A stretch of 33,292 bases of DNA from Lachnospiraceae bacterium (GTDB lineage: Bacteria > Bacillota > Clostridia > Lachnospirales > Lachnospiraceae): positions 1 through 33,292 of the forward strand of contig JAJQDE010000063.1 in assembly GCA_021202335.1 (NCBI GenBank). Direction: 5' to 3'. Of the stretch, positions 1 through 33,197 are shown one piece after another (the first letter of the stretch is position 1; every line of letters starts with the position of its first letter). The position numbers and the translations under genes are program-made. The notes under the pieces are model-generated. The model worked only from the letters and a program-made list of their open reading frames with translations, was not told the origin of the DNA and searched no databases.

Positions 1-25
1 AAGCTCGATAGCTTATTTTTCATAC

Positions 26-125
26 GGCTATTTGTGCCGGAGCGTCACAAATAGCCTTGATGGCAGACGAAAATCTGACATTTGCGTCGCCCCGTCGCGT
101 AAAACGCTCCGGAATGGGGATTAAA
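26..125 (+). promoter_or_regulatory. Structured 5' leader with candidate pseudoknot, before the alpha-galactosidase
   Basis: Bases 26-36 and 46-56 form a perfect 11-bp stem. Its 9-nt loop (CCGGAGCGT, 37-45) is the exact reverse complement of ACGCTCCGG at 104-112, which runs into the purine-rich ribosome-binding region GGAATGGGGA (111-120) before the ATG at 126. A second imperfect stem (GGC-GACG-AAA near 62-71 with TTT-CGTC-GCC near 81-91) lies between. The layout resembles a cis-regulatory pseudoknot that would cover the ribosome-binding site. A sibling hairpin with the same loop lies before cheW (8799). The pairing is directly visible; a regulatory role and any ligand are inference. I do not recognise it as a known riboswitch class. 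Confidence 0.55.
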
Positions 126-2315
126 ATGGGAATTATATTTGACGAAAAGGAAAAAACGTTTACGCTTCATACAGAGCATACGACTTATCAGATGCAGGTG
201 GACAGATATGGTTTTCTGCTGCATTTGTACTATGGAAAGACAGCGCAGGGATGCATGGATTATCTGCTGACCTATGCTGACCACGGTTTTTCGGGAAATC
301 CGTATGATGCGGGTATGGATAGAACATATTCCATGGATGCGCTCCCGCAGGAATTTCCAACGCTTGGCACGGGGGACTACAGAACCGTGGCGTGCATCAT
401 AAAAAACGCGGACGGCAGCTTTGCCTGTGATTTCCGCTATGAGAGTCACAGCATCAGAGAGGGAAAATATGCCCTTCAGGGGCTTCCTGCGGTATATGCC
501 GGGAAAAACGAAGCACAGACATTGGAAATAGTGCTTTCGGATCATGCATCAGGAGTAAAGGCACAGCTTCTTTATGGCGTATTGCCGGAGCTTGATATCA
601 TAACAAGAAGCGTCAGAATTTTAAACGCCGGCGAGGGAAGCATTACGCTGGAAAAGCTTGCGCCTGCCTGCCTTGATTTTGTCACGGGGAAATTTGACTT
701 TATTACATTTTACGGTCGTCATGCCATGGAGAGGAATTTCCAAAGAATTCCGATTGCGCATGGAATTTCTAAAATAGGAAGCTTTCGCGGCGCCTCAAGC
801 CATCAGTATAACCCTGCGGTCATTGTGGCGGAAAGGAGCGCGACTGAGGACGCGGGGCAGTGCTATGCGCTCGCGTTTGTATACAGCGGCAGCTTCCAAA
901 GCGAGGCGCAGAGAGACCAGTTCGACCAGACGAGAGTGCTGATGGGGCTTCAGGAGGAGATGTTTTCCTATTGCCTGAAAGCGGGTGAGGAATTTGCCGC
1001 TCCGGAGGTAATCATGAGTTACTCATCTGAGGGGCTTGCACCATTGTCGCAGAATTTGCACCGCTGCATGAGAACGCATCTGTGCAGGGGAAAATACAGA
1101 GATGTCAGAAGACCGATTCTTATCAACAGTTGGGAGGCGGCATACTTTGACTTTACGGGGGAAGCTCTTTTAAAGCTTGCGGCTGAGGCAGCCGATTTGG
1201 GGATGGAAATGTTCGTGTTGGACGACGGGTGGTTTGGAAACAGGGACAATGACCTTAAGGCGCTGGGCGACTGGCAGGTCAACGAAAAAAAGCTTGGCTG
1301 CACGCTGGGAGAACTGATTGCCGGGATAAACGGCATGGGACTGAAATTCGGCTTGTGGATTGAGCCGGAAATGGTAAACGAGGACAGCAATTTGTATCGG
1401 GAGCATCCGGATTGGGTACTGGCAATTCCGAAAAGAAAGCCGGTCCGCTCAAGGTATCAGCTTGTGCTGGATTTTTCAAGAAAAGACGTGGTGGATTATG
1501 TGTTCGGACAGATTTGCGGAGTGCTTGACCAGGGAAATATTGAATATATAAAATGGGACATGAACAGAAGCCTGTCCGATATTTTTTCGGCGCAGACGGA
1601 CTGCCAGGGAAAGGTTTTGTACGATTATGTGCTGGGCGTGTATGATTTTTTGGAACGTCTTGTTAAAAGATATCCTGATTTGCTGATTGAGGGCTGCTGC
1701 GGCGGCGGCGGACGTTTTGACGCGGGTATGCTCTACTATACGCCGCAGATTTGGTGCAGCGACAACACGGATGCGGCAGACCGGGTAAGAATACAGTACG
1801 GCACATCATTTGTCTATCCGGTATCGGCGGCAGGCTCGCATGTTTCGGCAAGCCCAAACCATCAGACGGGAAGAAAAACTCCGCTGCATACAAGAGGCGT
1901 GGTCGCGATGTCGGGCACCTTCGGATATGAATTGAATTTGGGAATGTTGACGGCAGAGGAGAAGGATGAGATACGGGCGCAGATTAAGAGCTATTGCGCA
2001 TATGCTGATTTAATACAAAAGGGCTTGTACTATCGCCTGTCATGTCCGAGCGAGGATGAAGTTGGGGCGTGGATGTTTGTTTCCGAGGACAAATCCGAAG
2101 CCTTAGTGTGCGCAGTCAGTCTGGCGCAGCATGCAAATATGCCGGCAAATTATGTCCGGCTTAAAGGCCTTAAGGAGAACACCGCATACAGGGAAGCTGC
2201 GGGCGGAAAAATATATAACAGCACGGCGCTTATGGAAACAGGCATTGCGCTAAAGGGCGCGGAATGTGAATATCAGGCTTACCAAATGCATTTTGTGGAA
2301 TGTTGTCACTTTTAG
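126..2315 (+). CDS. Alpha-galactosidase, glycoside hydrolase family 36
   Basis: Retaining exo-glycosidase that releases terminal alpha-1,6-linked galactose from raffinose-family sugars and galactomannan fragments. The 729-residue length is typical of bacterial GH36. It has an N-terminal beta-sandwich, a (beta/alpha)8 barrel and a C-terminal beta domain. The nucleophile Asp478 sits in KWDMNR and the acid/base Asp546 in WCSDNTDA; FVLDDGWFG and LWIEPEMVN are further GH36 barrel motifs. No signal peptide is present, so it should act in the cytosol on imported oligosaccharides. I chose ATG 126 because GGAATGGGGA lies just upstream and the protein then begins at the usual family start; the frame is open back to an ATG at 57, but that stretch is the structured leader. 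The gene ends in a 13-bp tandem duplication across the stop codon. No sugar transporter or regulator is adjacent within the window. Confidence 0.95.
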   Translation: MGIIFDEKEKTFTLHTEHTTYQMQVDRYGFLLHLYYGKTAQGCMDYLLTYADHGFSGNPYDAGMDRTYSMDALPQEFPTLGTGDYRTVACIIKNADGSFACDFRYESHSIREGKYALQGLPAVYAGKNEAQTLEIVLSDHASGVKAQLLYGVLPELDIITRSVRILNAGEGSITLEKLAPACLDFVTGKFDFITFYGRHAMERNFQRIPIAHGISKIGSFRGASSHQYNPAVIVAERSATEDAGQCYALAFVYSGSFQSEAQRDQFDQTRVLMGLQEEMFSYCLKAGEEFAAPEVIMSYSSEGLAPLSQNLHRCMRTHLCRGKYRDVRRPILINSWEAAYFDFTGEALLKLAAEAADLGMEMFVLDDGWFGNRDNDLKALGDWQVNEKKLGCTLGELIAGINGMGLKFGLWIEPEMVNEDSNLYREHPDWVLAIPKRKPVRSRYQLVLDFSRKDVVDYVFGQICGVLDQGNIEYIKWDMNRSLSDIFSAQTDCQGKVLYDYVLGVYDFLERLVKRYPDLLIEGCCGGGGRFDAGMLYYTPQIWCSDNTDAADRVRIQYGTSFVYPVSAAGSHVSASPNHQTGRKTPLHTRGVVAMSGTFGYELNLGMLTAEEKDEIRAQIKSYCAYADLIQKGLYYRLSCPSEDEVGAWMFVSEDKSEALVCAVSLAQHANMPANYVRLKGLKENTAYREAAGGKIYNSTALMETGIALKGAECEYQAYQMHFVECCHF

Positions 2316-2386: not shown

Positions 2387-2460
2387 GGAAGCATAGCTCA
2401 GCCGGGATGAGCGTTCGCCTCACACGCGAGAGGTCACGGGTTCGAGCCCCGTTGCTTCCA
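2387..2460 (+). tRNA. tRNA-Val (anticodon CAC)
   Basis: Full cloverleaf: acceptor GGAAGCA (2387-2393) with TGCTTCC (2453-2459), D arm GCTCAGCCGGGATGAGC, a 5-bp anticodon stem with loop CTCACAC giving CAC at 2421-2423, and a T arm with GGGTTCGAGCCCC. The discriminator is A2460. CCA is not encoded. It is the first of two tRNAs sharing a promoter and terminator. Confidence 0.95.
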
Positions 2461-2465
2461 TTCAT

Positions 2466-2538
2466 GGGGATATAGCTCAGTTGGGAGAGCGACGCGTTCG
2501 CAACGCGTAGGTCAGGGGTTCGAGTCCCCCTATCTCCA
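2466..2538 (+). tRNA. tRNA-Ala (anticodon CGC)
   Basis: Acceptor GGGGATA (2466-2472) pairs with TATCTCC (2531-2537) and includes the G3-U70 wobble (G2468/T2535) that identifies alanine tRNA. The anticodon stem ACGCG/CGCGT holds loop TTCGCAA with CGC at 2499-2501. The T arm is canonical and the discriminator is A2538. It lies 5 nt after tRNA-Val, so the two are co-transcribed. Confidence 0.96.
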
Positions 2539-2540
2539 CT

Positions 2541-2559
2541 GCCCTAAAGGGCTTTTTTT
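2541..2559 (+). terminator. Rho-independent terminator after tRNA-Ala
   Basis: GCCCT (2541-2545) and AGGGC (2548-2552) form a short GC-rich hairpin followed by seven T (2553-2559). Confidence 0.85.
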
Positions 2560-2563
2560 ATGT

Positions 2564-2631
2564 ATAGGAAAGTTCGTCCTATCAAAGCTATCTGATAGCA
2601 TGTAAAAGTATTTGACCGATGCATGGGTCAA
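2564..2631 (+). repeat. Small palindromes between tRNA-Ala and tRNA-Leu
   Basis: Three inverted repeats in succession: ATAGGA-AAGTTCG-TCCTAT (2564-2582), GCTATC-T-GATAGC (2588-2600) and TTGACC-GATGCATG-GGTCAA (2612-2631). The first shares its arms and its AAGTTCG loop with the longer hairpin at 2810-2846, so it belongs to the same repeat family. I see no clear sigma-A promoter for tRNA-Leu here. Confidence 0.6.
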
Positions 2632-2639
2632 TTCTTTAT

Positions 2640-2719
2640 GCGGATATGGCGGAATTGGCAGACGCGCCGGATTTAGGTTCCGGTGGGCAACCGTGCAGGT
2701 TCAACTCCTGTTATCCGCA
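2640..2719 (+). tRNA. tRNA-Leu (anticodon TAG)
   Basis: Acceptor GCGGATA (2640-2646) pairs with TATCCGC (2712-2718), discriminator A2719. The anticodon stem CCGGA/TCCGG holds loop TTTAGGT with TAG at 2674-2676. A long variable arm (about 2684-2694) fits a class II tRNA, and the T arm is GCAGG-TTCAACT-CCTGT. CCA is not encoded. Confidence 0.95.
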
Positions 2720-2981: not shown

Positions 2982-3572
2982 ATGGCAAAGCTGTATTTTT
3001 ATTATGGAGCGATGAACAGCTCAAAGACGGCAAACGCGCTTATGACGCATTTCAACTATGAGGAGGTCGGGCAGAAGGCGCTGCTTTGCAAGACGGAGGC
3101 TGACACGAGAGATGGCGAGCGGATAATCCGCTCAAGAATCGGGCTTGAGATGGAATGTGTTCTTTTATCCGAACTTATGGATATGCCCGAAAGCGAGATA
3201 AAAAAATATAACTGCATTATCGTCGACGAGATACAGTTTGCGACAAAGACTCAAATTGATTTTCTCTCCGATATCGTGGACTTTATGGAGGTGCCTGTCG
3301 TGTGCTACGGTTTGCGGGCTGACTTCCAAAACAATCTTTTTCCGGGGAGCGAAAGGCTGATTGCGATTGCAGACACGATACAGGAAATAAAGACAGTGTG
3401 CTGGTGCGGAAGGAAAGCAACAGCAAATGCGCGATTTAACAGCGCGGGAATTGTGCGCGACGGGCAGCAGGTTGTGCTTGGTGCAAACGACAGTTATGTC
3501 GCGCTGTGCAGAAAACATTTTAAGCTGGGAATGTTGGGACCCGATTTGAGCGATAAGCGGAATGGGGAATAG
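2982..3572 (+). CDS. tdk: Thymidine kinase (type II)
   Basis: Phosphorylates thymidine with ATP to dTMP in the salvage pathway; cytosolic, usually a tetramer. The 196-residue protein has the P-loop GAMNSSKT at residues 9-16, the DEIQF Walker B/catalytic region, and a C-terminal zinc-ribbon/lasso part with CWCGRKA and a later CRKHF that can supply the remaining ligands. ATG 2982 is chosen because GGGAGG lies 5-10 bases upstream; the frame is open further 5' only through a TTG. The hairpin cluster at 2771-2937 sits directly upstream, so its second module A is in or next to the leader. The next gene, an exchanger, follows after 21 nt and is probably co-transcribed. Confidence 0.95.
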   Translation: MAKLYFYYGAMNSSKTANALMTHFNYEEVGQKALLCKTEADTRDGERIIRSRIGLEMECVLLSELMDMPESEIKKYNCIIVDEIQFATKTQIDFLSDIVDFMEVPVVCYGLRADFQNNLFPGSERLIAIADTIQEIKTVCWCGRKATANARFNSAGIVRDGQQVVLGANDSYVALCRKHFKLGMLGPDLSDKRNGE

Positions 3573-3593
3573 TGTGCAAGAAAGGGGATTATT

Positions 3594-5771: not shown

Positions 5772-5876
5772 ATAGTCAATGATGATACGCGGAACACGAA
5801 GGAAGAACCGGCTTTGTTTAGAACCAACTTTGTTGGTTCCGCAAATATTGTGCTTGTGCAGGAATGGAGGTTTAAA

Positions 5877-8399: not shown

Positions 8400-8792
8400 A
8401 TGAGAATATTAATAGCAGAGGACGATTTTGCCAGCAGGAAGGTAATACTTAAATTCCTTTCCCTGTATGGAGAATGTGACGTGACGGTCGACGGCATGGA
8501 AGCGATTGACGCGTTTATGATGGCGCTTGAAGAGGATGAGCCGTACGACCTCATCTGTCTGGATGTGATGATGCCTATTATGGACGGCTATCAGGCGCTT
8601 AAAAATATCCGCGATATTGAAAAGGAGCATAACATACCCGACGATAAGCAGACTAAAATCATTATGACGACGGCGCTGAACGAGGAAAAGAATGTGAAGA
8701 AGGCGTTTGAGCTTGGCTGCACGGTGTATTGCGCAAAGCCTATTGATATGGACAAGCTCAAGAGCACGATTGAAAAGCTTGAATTGATATGA
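8400..8792 (+). CDS. Stand-alone CheY-like response regulator receiver
   Basis: Single receiver domain of 130 residues with every phosphorylation residue present: acidic pair in IAEDD (residues 7-9), phosphoacceptor Asp55 in CLDVMMP, Thr/Ser in IIMTTA and Lys113 in CAKP. It has no output domain. GGAGGAG upstream of ATG 8400 is a strong ribosome-binding site. It follows the phosphorylation-dead cheB by 20 nt and precedes cheW and the PAS kinase, so it is a natural phosphoryl acceptor for that kinase or for CheA encoded elsewhere. Whether it binds the flagellar switch like CheY or only relays phosphate cannot be decided from sequence. Confidence 0.9.
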   Translation: MRILIAEDDFASRKVILKFLSLYGECDVTVDGMEAIDAFMMALEEDEPYDLICLDVMMPIMDGYQALKNIRDIEKEHNIPDDKQTKIIMTTALNEEKNVKKAFELGCTVYCAKPIDMDKLKSTIEKLELI

Positions 8793-8798
8793 TATTTT

Positions 8799-8908
8799 GG
8801 TTATTTGTGCAGGAGCGTCACAAACAGCTTTGCCGGCATCCCATTGCTGATGCTTTGGAATTGGGGATGGACGGCGAATTTGTGCTTGCGTAAGAATGGG
8901 GGATTACA
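8799..8908 (+). promoter_or_regulatory. Structured leader before cheW, second copy of the GGAGCGT-loop hairpin
   Basis: Bases 8799-8809 and 8819-8829 pair over 10 of 11 positions (two G-U, one A-C mismatch) around loop CAGGAGCGT. Loop and stem closely match the hairpin at 26-56. Downstream, both leaders share TTG, then GGCA, then GCGTAA and GAATGGGG-ATTA before the start codon. This copy lacks the stretch that base-pairs with the loop in the first leader. Instead, ATTTGTGC is repeated at 8877-8884, so CACAAA of the hairpin could alternatively pair there. The region is an intra-operon spacer of 116 nt, unusually long for this cluster. Function is inferred only. Confidence 0.5.
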
Positions 8909-9430
8909 ATGGAAGAAAACTTAGACGATTTAGAGCTGATGCTTGAGGAAGAAGCGGATACAAGACTGGGAAAGTATATGACCTTCGGATTAGGTGCGGA
9001 CGTGTTTGGCATTGAGCTGAAATATGTCAATGAAATTATTCAGATGCAGCAGATAGCTCCAATTCCGGAGGTTGAGCATTTTATAAGGGGTCTTATCAAT
9101 CTCAGGGGAAAGATTGTTCCCGTAATTGATGTGGCTGACAGGCTCGGCAAGGAGCCTTTTGACTATAATGACCGCACATGCATTATCGTGATAGAGGTGC
9201 AGGGAGTTGTGGTCGGGCTGATTACCGAGAGGATTTCAGAGGTGGTGTCCATTGAAGAGGAGGACATTCTGCCGCCGCCCAACACATCGAAGGGATATGT
9301 AAACGGGAAGTTCATAAAGGGGATAGGCAAGGTTGGAGATACGGTAAAGCTTCTGTTGGACCCGATAAAGCTTATAAGTGACAATATATCGGATTTTGCA
9401 GATAAATCGGAGGATGACGAGGAAGAGTAA
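8909..9430 (+). CDS. cheW: CheW-type chemotaxis coupling protein
   Basis: Scaffold that links receptor tips to the kinase CheA in chemosensory arrays. The 173-residue protein has the CheW fold from about residue 20 on, with typical strands and motifs: MTFGLGADVFGIEL, VNEIIQ, PEVEHFIRGLINLRGKIVPVIDV, then VVGLITERISEVV and KGIGKVGDTVKLLLD. An acidic N-terminal extension (MEENLDDLELMLEEE) and an acidic tail flank it. GGGGGATT precedes ATG 8909. It is preceded by the structured leader at 8799. The stop codon abuts the next ATG with no gap, implying translational coupling to the kinase. Confidence 0.93.
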   Translation: MEENLDDLELMLEEEADTRLGKYMTFGLGADVFGIELKYVNEIIQMQQIAPIPEVEHFIRGLINLRGKIVPVIDVADRLGKEPFDYNDRTCIIVIEVQGVVVGLITERISEVVSIEEEDILPPPNTSKGYVNGKFIKGIGKVGDTVKLLLDPIKLISDNISDFADKSEDDEEE

Positions 9431-33111: not shown

Positions 33112-33197
33112 GGAGAGGTATCGAAGTGGTCATAACGAGGCGGTCTTGAAAACCGTTTGTCCGCAAGGGCGCGTGGGTTCGAATCCCACCCTCTCCG
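33112..33197 (+). tRNA. tRNA-Ser (anticodon TGA)
   Basis: Acceptor GGAGAGG (33112-33118) pairs with CCTCTCC (33190-33196), discriminator G33197. The anticodon loop CTTGAAA gives TGA at 33147-33149. A long variable arm (TTGTCCGCAAGGGCGC region) fits a class II tRNA. The T arm is GTGGG-TTCGAAT-CCCAC. CCA is not encoded. Confidence 0.96.

Follow-up and report, generated by a model that had tools for sequence, protein, structure and literature searches.

REP/RAYT and IS200/IS605 elements are marked by hairpin ends and by base pairing to end sequences, and in pseudoknot translational riboswitches a loop pairs with a strand beside the Shine-Dalgarno sequence (SD). The element considered here stands before a GH36 alpha-galactosidase gene at the start of contig JAJQDE010000063.1 of the Lachnospiraceae bacterium assembly GCA_021202335.1, the whole analysed stretch of 33,292 nucleotides being called the window. 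As in the pseudoknot riboswitches, its loop pairs with an SD-side strand, but no aptamer core was seen in it, the genes that it precedes have no common theme, and Rfam has no match to it. It differs from REP/RAYT and IS200/IS605 elements in that a Y1 transposase is absent from the genome to which the window belongs (the source genome) and rarer in genomes rich in the element.

BOX elements of Streptococcus pneumoniae are short, modular and present in many copies, have predicted stem-loops, and are reported to alter the expression of neighbouring genes (PMC3049150). The present element shares this multi-copy, stem-loop build, including modularity of exchangeable parts, as it has alternative A and optional C modules. 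The terminal inverted repeats of BOX resemble those of ISSpn2 (PMC3049150), whereas none were found in four copies of the element, no insertion sequence (IS) library being searched; and the parts of that paper on which this comparison draws describe neither a placement between SD and start codon nor a pseudoknot from loop to SD-side strand. Under the definition given there of miniature inverted-repeat transposable elements (MITEs), the likeness lies in being non-coding, dispersed, highly base-paired and flanked by a putative duplication, and the difference in the missing terminal inverted repeats (four copies), with no matching IS looked for. The putative duplication takes the form of SD regions that are alike on both sides beyond permutation; its length is not sharp. 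MRSC-65-2 is a mobile or repeat motif with dozens of copies per genome and a single long covarying stem, found in diverse phyla (PMC11109978). The element likewise combines dozens of copies with a covarying stem, but it has several hairpins, a pseudoknot and a start-codon placement, and in the draws made it appeared in one order only. Full-text literature searches found no description of it. The window feature is read here, with a probability of roughly 0.62, as one copy of a modular interspersed element inserted between an SD and a start codon, the fold of which keeps the gene translatable.

A repeat family ahead of start codons

Because the window begins inside the element, at a contig end, most of the 5' arm of hairpin A is missing; for the missing portion sibling copies read GTATGAAAAAT, and the match is flagged as 5'-cut. 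The features of this copy and its gene are as follows.

1..25, + strand: module A hairpin, incomplete (innermost 5' arm 1-5, loop 6-9, 3' arm 10-25)
26..56, + strand: module B hairpin, 11 perfect base pairs (arms 26-36, GGCTATTTGTG, and 46-56, CACAAATAGCC)
37-45, + strand: module B loop of 9 nt, CCGGAGCGT
66..88, + strand: module C hairpin, which not all family members have; the window copy carries an A70/G84 mismatch
97..107, + strand: alternative stem D (GCGT/ACGC), which excludes pairing by the 5' end of the pseudoknot strand
104..112, + strand: pseudoknot strand ACGCTCCGG, exact reverse complement of loop 37-45
113..120, + strand: 3' SD copy AATGGGGA, serving the GH36 start codon
126..2315, + strand: GH36 alpha-galactosidase gene (melibiase), confirmed as GH36 by Pfam

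The pseudoknot strand is followed by AATGGGGATTAAA, and the GH36 ATG stands at 126. The perfect hairpin and its loop complementary to 104-112 by the SD, to which an earlier note on this DNA had drawn attention, are exact on checking, and the note's judgement that such a match is unlikely by chance is borne out: when positions 1-200 were dinucleotide-shuffled 1500 times, no shuffle reproduced the 11-bp stem with the 9-nt match, none had even an 8-bp stem with 7 nt, and 15 had a 7-bp stem with 6 nt. The second, bulged stem that the note placed in between is module C, bulged in the window owing to an A at position 70, where C prevails among the aligned copies of the same subfamily. Folded without the pseudoknot, the window stretch has an unremarkable minimum free energy, barely below that of shuffles (z -1.16). 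Rfam has nothing over the window element at the gathering cut-off and nothing credible at E up to 5; across 20 loci of diverse subfamilies no Rfam match lay over an element, the single match being to a T-box. That T-box leader (L204 234-518) is near an element copy in genome G159.

Searched as DNA, the source genome gave 48 matches to the window element. A copy-finding pattern (hairpin A, a short loop core of GAGC, GAAC, AAGC or GGGC, and an SD) yielded 40 copies, of which 35 form the alignment A1 (left out were the first copy at L016 and L017, L019, L088 and L092), and of 150 source-genome candidates scored with the covariance model built from A1, 109 reached E 0.01 or better. From these, 83 separate, non-overlapping sense-strand copies were taken in a genome of 2.74 Mb; of the remaining 26, 24 cover hairpin A on the reverse strand and 2 are fragments of copies already in the count. 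When 82 of the 83 were fetched (C19:36724 was left out), an open reading frame (ORF) of at least 40 aa was found to start at the 3' end of the element in 76, with an ATG in 71 and an SD in 74, while in a random control over the same loci and span an ATG with such an ORF occurred at 695 of 5000 positions. Copies are mostly 110-160 bp long and run in the order hairpin A, hairpin B with its pairing loop, optional hairpin C, pairing strand, SD and start codon. Hairpin A has the form GTATGAAAAATAAGCT-cgat-AGCTTATTTTTCATAC, at times with a GAACAAAC...GTTTGTTC palindrome next to it or in its place, and is swapped or lost in many copies; hairpin C exists in several unrelated versions. Near-identical copies are numerous within single genomes, and nested and tandem copies also occur. 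A second subfamily of the source genome (L354, L355, L357, L359, L362, L365, L372) has the hairpin GAGTGAAAAATAAATTTTTCACTC with a loop like ACTGCGCGCTGC and a tail, AGCAGCGCAG, that by eye could pair with either half of the loop.

The 76 downstream proteins, scanned over their first 250 aa at most, fall into 102 Pfam families of which none has more than 3 members, and a regulon with a gene theme in the source genome is rejected on that count; core genes led by the element include a der-type GTPase, a parA-type gene and luxS. Control of GH36 by sugar status, which the earlier note had raised as a possibility, accordingly finds no support, the same element standing before 76 ORFs of unrelated families. 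The idea of a GH36 leader is further countered by the paired SDs and empty sites described below and by the position of the copies: a same-strand ORF of at least 300 nt ends no more than 50 nt upstream of 19 of the first 40, so that many are probably intercistronic.

Presence is patchy. The element occurs in 5 of 30 relatives and in 33 of 392 genomes of the order (E 0.001, 7 candidates scored per genome), the source genome included in both counts, and in 1 of 398 genomes of a phylum-wide draw, which is the source genome (E 1e-6). A pattern scan of named genomes gave at least 114 stretches; among the matches listed, most are Lachnospiraceae-type metagenome-assembled genomes (Roseburia, Acetatifactor, Lachnospira and others), and the stray names may be chance matches or binning errors. 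A plasmid search gave no match, and viral contigs held no exact match to one 18-base pattern. Three unannotated human-faecal sequences deposited as Bacteriophage sp. (MT836788.1, MT837007.1, MT838414.1) are 74-75% identical to the element across 98-99% of the query.

Paired SDs, empty sites and tails

Of 97 copies, 78 carry an SD-like word in the 13 nt 5' of hairpin A, as opposed to 13 that have one in a stretch about 20 nt further out; 9 of 106 copies are left out of this set since the rule could not locate hairpin A where it should be (L025 and L173 carry a variant of it). The 8 nt before hairpin A resemble the 3' SD region of the same copy to an extent that 0 of 5000 within-genome permutations reach, and the same holds (0 of 1000) in an enlarged set of 122 copies, with 7 dropped, that took in 23 of 40 extra copies of the source genome. 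Unusual letters can be common to both flanks, as in GGAGAGTA (L216), TGGAGATCA (L217), CGAGGATTA (L201) and GGAGGAAA (L170). A longer flank match, of at least 11 of the next 16 positions, is found in 10 of 122 copies, with permutations giving 5.7 on average and 10 at most; a duplication of 20-25 nt as a general rule was not supported, the observed mean being reached by 46 of 1000 permutations. The longest flank match, 26 nt with the pairing strand included, is that of L190. Among the long-match copies L213, L215 and L362 are nested on an older copy, and no older copy was seen upstream of L190, L203, L337 or L339; long matches may go back to a longer duplication, to gene conversion or to an element that reinserted at an old tail.

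Two loci offer empty sites. At der, which Pfam identifies by two GTPase stretches, genome G010 reads TAG-AAATGGAG-ctatgga-ATG and the source genome TAG-AAATGGAGATTA-element-AATGGGAGATTATAAA-ATG; AAATGGAG or AAACGGAG is kept close before the ATG in 13 of 14 same-genus relatives, and 13 of the 14 have, by eye, no element upstream of der. At uvrA, G012 reads GGAGGGATTATAAAG-ATG and G009 GGAGGATTA-element-GAAATGGGGTTTAGG-ATG, where GGAGGATTA lies within the 3' end of uvrB, as in G012 (both genes assigned by Pfam). The source genome has only a tail-like GCTCAGAAATGAGG at uvrA, and the other 16 readable uvrA loci show by eye neither element nor tail, 1 of the 19 (L395) being unreadable. A third candidate, pyrE, was rejected as a comparison since its upstream genes differ among relatives. 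Given that relatives without the element carry a single SD at der and uvrA, we conclude that the upstream SD is native there and that the element arrived later. The likeness of the flanking SDs and the empty sites with one SD thus place the element between two SDs, as insertion would leave it.

Tails also occur without bodies. The tail word GCTYCGGAATGGNG is present 50 times in the source genome and its backwards control 0 times; 17 of these words lie outside the 83 matches, one being the 5' flank of copy L355. An ORF of at least 75 aa directly follows the tail in 12 of the 16 others, all of which were read; L401, L409 and L410 retain more of the element, and in several a small hairpin such as GGAGCGTAAAACGCTCC replaces the body. 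Excision may have left such bodiless tails as scars, or they may represent a minimal form or copies that have decayed. L399, L404, L407 and L411 have the look of minimal forms, with a single hairpin of the GGAGCGTAAAACGCTCC kind followed by a second SD, and the 5' arm of that hairpin may be the native SD.

The loop-to-strand helix and competing explanations

Stems A, B and C together with the loop-to-strand helix are paired in 97.9% of cells of A1, and 17 of 43 pairs have changed on both sides; none of 500 shuffles did as well, and slid controls were 35-45% paired. Taken alone, the helix is paired in 97.1% of cells (0 of 500 shuffles), with both-sided change in 4 of 8 pairs, which 43 of 500 shuffles reach, and in 28 cells, which none reach. 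Its variants include CCGGAGCGT/ACGCTCCGG, TTCTGAGCGA/TCGCTCAGAA, GTCAGAGC/GCTCTGAC and CCGCAGGCGC/GCGTCTGCGG. Of 28 further loci that were read, L177, L180 and L182 were excluded from later counts; L157 was not among the 28, as it repeats L073. In a wider set of 106 copies, 99 could be read by a rule that takes no account of complementarity, 88 of them with a helix of at least 7, and the 66 distinct loop/strand combinations give 55 such helices as compared with a mean of 29.8 and a maximum of 41 in 300 strand permutations. Judged by covariation, the long-range helix is real. Compensatory change between the loop and the 104-112 strand, on which the earlier note had staked its pseudoknot, is therefore present both in the 35-copy alignment and in the wider set; of the proposed riboregulator, the pseudoknot-type pairing and its conserved place at the SD stand, and regulation specific to GH36 is not supported.

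Stem D, which shares the 5' end of the pseudoknot strand and is missing from many copies, covaries as well (93.6% of cells paired, 0 of 500 shuffles); 3 of its 5 pairs changed on both sides, as 88 of 500 shuffles also achieve, and it shows no more pair types than shuffles do. A manual count over stems A and B and columns 55-62/169-176 gave 45 G-U cells and 10 A-C cells, an excess that is suggestive, the rows being related, of a sense strand acting as RNA.

When the loop-to-strand helix is held in a thermodynamic model, accessibility of the window SD rises from 0.14 to 0.56. The mean over 106 of 120 copies, 13 of the 40 extra source-genome copies included, rises from 0.31 to 0.42, with a gain of more than 0.1 in 46. 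Differences from the consensus in 18 copies, hand-picked and mostly older, with the misaligned window row excluded, number 52/360 in the linker, 26/396 in hairpin arms, 12/144 in loops, 9/180 in pairing strands and 5/126 in SDs, a weak test because copies were found by similarity. Accessibility and consensus differences together therefore favour an inserted element with a fold that keeps the gene translatable. Insertion at an SD would leave two SD versions flanking the element, the upstream one spent and the downstream one translating the gene. Hairpins A, B and, where present, C would fold in the mRNA, and loop B would pair with the last 8-10 nt of the element, directly upstream of the 3' SD. 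This helix would most probably serve to make the leader compact and to engage the CUCC-bearing strand, a possible pairing partner of the SD when free, such that the gene would remain translatable; by eye, CUCC/SD pairing as a conserved OFF state is weak or missing in several subfamilies. Control of translation by the element is a plausible candidate role, and regulation by a signal is possible.

Several observations weigh against this reading. Neither a transposase, a recombinase nor an autonomous copy was found, only Y1_Tnp and RVT_1 having been screened, and no inverted repeat joins both ends in 4 intact copies. Y1_Tnp matches occur in 4 of 15 element-rich and 11 of 20 element-poor genomes, and RVT_1 matches in 9 of 15 and 15 of 20, element-poor meaning without a match in the order scan, where few candidates were scored per genome. 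Covariation counts overstate independent events because copies share recent ancestry, and model matches are biased to gene starts because the model (R1) includes the SD and ATG. Holding the helix lowers modelled SD accessibility in 18 of 106 copies, and 14 of 120 yielded either no loop/strand helix or no readable SD. The flanking repeat has no sharp length, a few copies repeating 20-26 nt with the pairing strand included. Finally, at der in the relative G003 (L134) the interval from stop codon to SD contains hairpins resembling A and B (ATGTGAAATCTCCGATTTCACAT, GGCAAATTTGTGCAAAGGCACAAATTCGC), so that not every relative offers a clean site there; these hairpins may belong to another subfamily and were unmatched in the DNA search of relatives. 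Neither enzyme is supported as a driver: Y1_Tnp is rarer in element-rich genomes and has no match in the source genome (G000) or in G009, and RVT_1 has no match in 6 of the 15 element-rich genomes, G317 and G159 included.

At somewhat less than even odds, the element could be a purely selfish, MITE-like repeat, its structure serving mobility only, whether as RNA or as single-stranded DNA, and its location at gene starts following from an SD-like insertion target. The SD-like sequence 5' of the element, the likeness of SDs on its two sides, the many near-identical copies within single genomes, the nested and tandem copies and the lack of theme among downstream genes all fit such a repeat. It is countered by the failure to find a mobilising enzyme (Y1_Tnp and RVT_1 screened) or terminal inverted repeats (4 copies tested), by the better conservation of structured segments than of linker in old copies, and by the strand bias of G-U pairs, which favours a sense RNA.

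Considerably less probable is a regulatory RNA, that is, a translational riboswitch or protein-controlled switch that would place some 80 genes under one signal and have spread because regulation is useful. The covariation that conserves the helix and its adjacency to the SD, the competition of stem D for the pseudoknot strand, divergence of structured segments at about half that of the linker and the G-U excess, as expected of a strand acting as RNA, speak for such a switch. Opposed to it are the spread of 76 proteins over 102 Pfam families with none above 3 members, the exchange or loss of module A in many copies, the patchy presence among close relatives, and decayed copies (window 8771-8914) that still precede intact-looking genes; nor was a conserved unpaired aptamer core seen in the 35 aligned copies.

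A translated leader peptide (upstream ORF, uORF) that attenuates or couples translation is very improbable. Many copies do have an upstream SD with ATG, GTG or TTG at the foot of hairpin A, and in G009 copies such as L085 one frame is open through the whole element, its stop overlapping the next ATG. That open frame is not retained in other subfamilies, however, the frame at der has 3 codons, and some copies have no module A; a uORF attenuator was rejected on the frame-shifting indels of L016, L095, L101 and L103 and on the missing start codons of other families (L168, L170). An intrinsic terminator or attenuator formed by the A/T-rich hairpin A is just as remote, for although module A is a strong stem with a T-run, it is replaced or absent in many copies, and in the 19 of 40 copies close behind a same-strand ORF termination would cost the next gene.

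The reading as an inserted element with a translatable fold may, though at less than even odds, be taken further, to a class of mobile elements that target SDs specifically and bring along a translation-initiation module with a pseudoknot; through their movement, unrelated genes by the dozen in each genome would come to share one RNA-level translational behaviour, and the result would be a movable, evolvable ribosome-binding site. If the insertion reading is right, a repeat would have rebuilt the ribosome-binding sites of perhaps 3 per cent of genes in some gut Lachnospiraceae (83 copies over an estimated, uncounted gene number), and an RNA-structured repeat with a start-codon address would provide a natural experiment on how genes tolerate the insertion of a leader between SD and start codon. 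There is also a caution, in that a riboswitch-like leader at a single gene may be a repeat.

A decayed copy and probable remnants in the window

Three further stretches of the window were assigned to the family with varying confidence.

8799..8868, + strand: decayed second copy (hairpin B 8799-8828, loop 8810-8818; model match 8771-8914, E 1.1e-7)
8869..8908, + strand: probable nested remnant, from another subfamily, within the old tail; it ends in the SD of a cheW-like gene
5822..5876, + strand: probable short remnant, with an alternative A hairpin (AACCAACTTTGTTGGTT), CGCAAATATTGTGC... and GGAATGGAGG before ATG 5877 (E 0.016)

The earlier note had paired its leader with a second site at 8790-8908, which is indeed a copy of the same element, but a decayed one in which the pairing strand no longer adjoins a working SD. 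Its old tail, at about 8849-8858, can still pair by way of G-U pairs (-5.5 kcal/mol). The cheW-like gene begins at 8909, and the stretch before it is probably a nested remnant of another subfamily, judging by its likeness to L344, L361 and L369. At 3558-3593, CGGAATGGGGAATAGTGTG (a 5' SD with the first bases of hairpin A) is followed by CAAGAAAGGGGATTATT before ATG 3594, with the body absent; this is possibly a scar of the element.

Contigs end inside element copies at window position 1 and at C14:1 and C60:14251 of the source genome, the C60 end matching the first 39 nt of the window exactly. The assembly probably breaks at these three ends because of the repeats, and the element probably accounts for some contig breaks in these assemblies. 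Four tRNA genes lie on the + strand at window 2387-2719 and 33112-33197, three of them clustered behind the GH36 gene.

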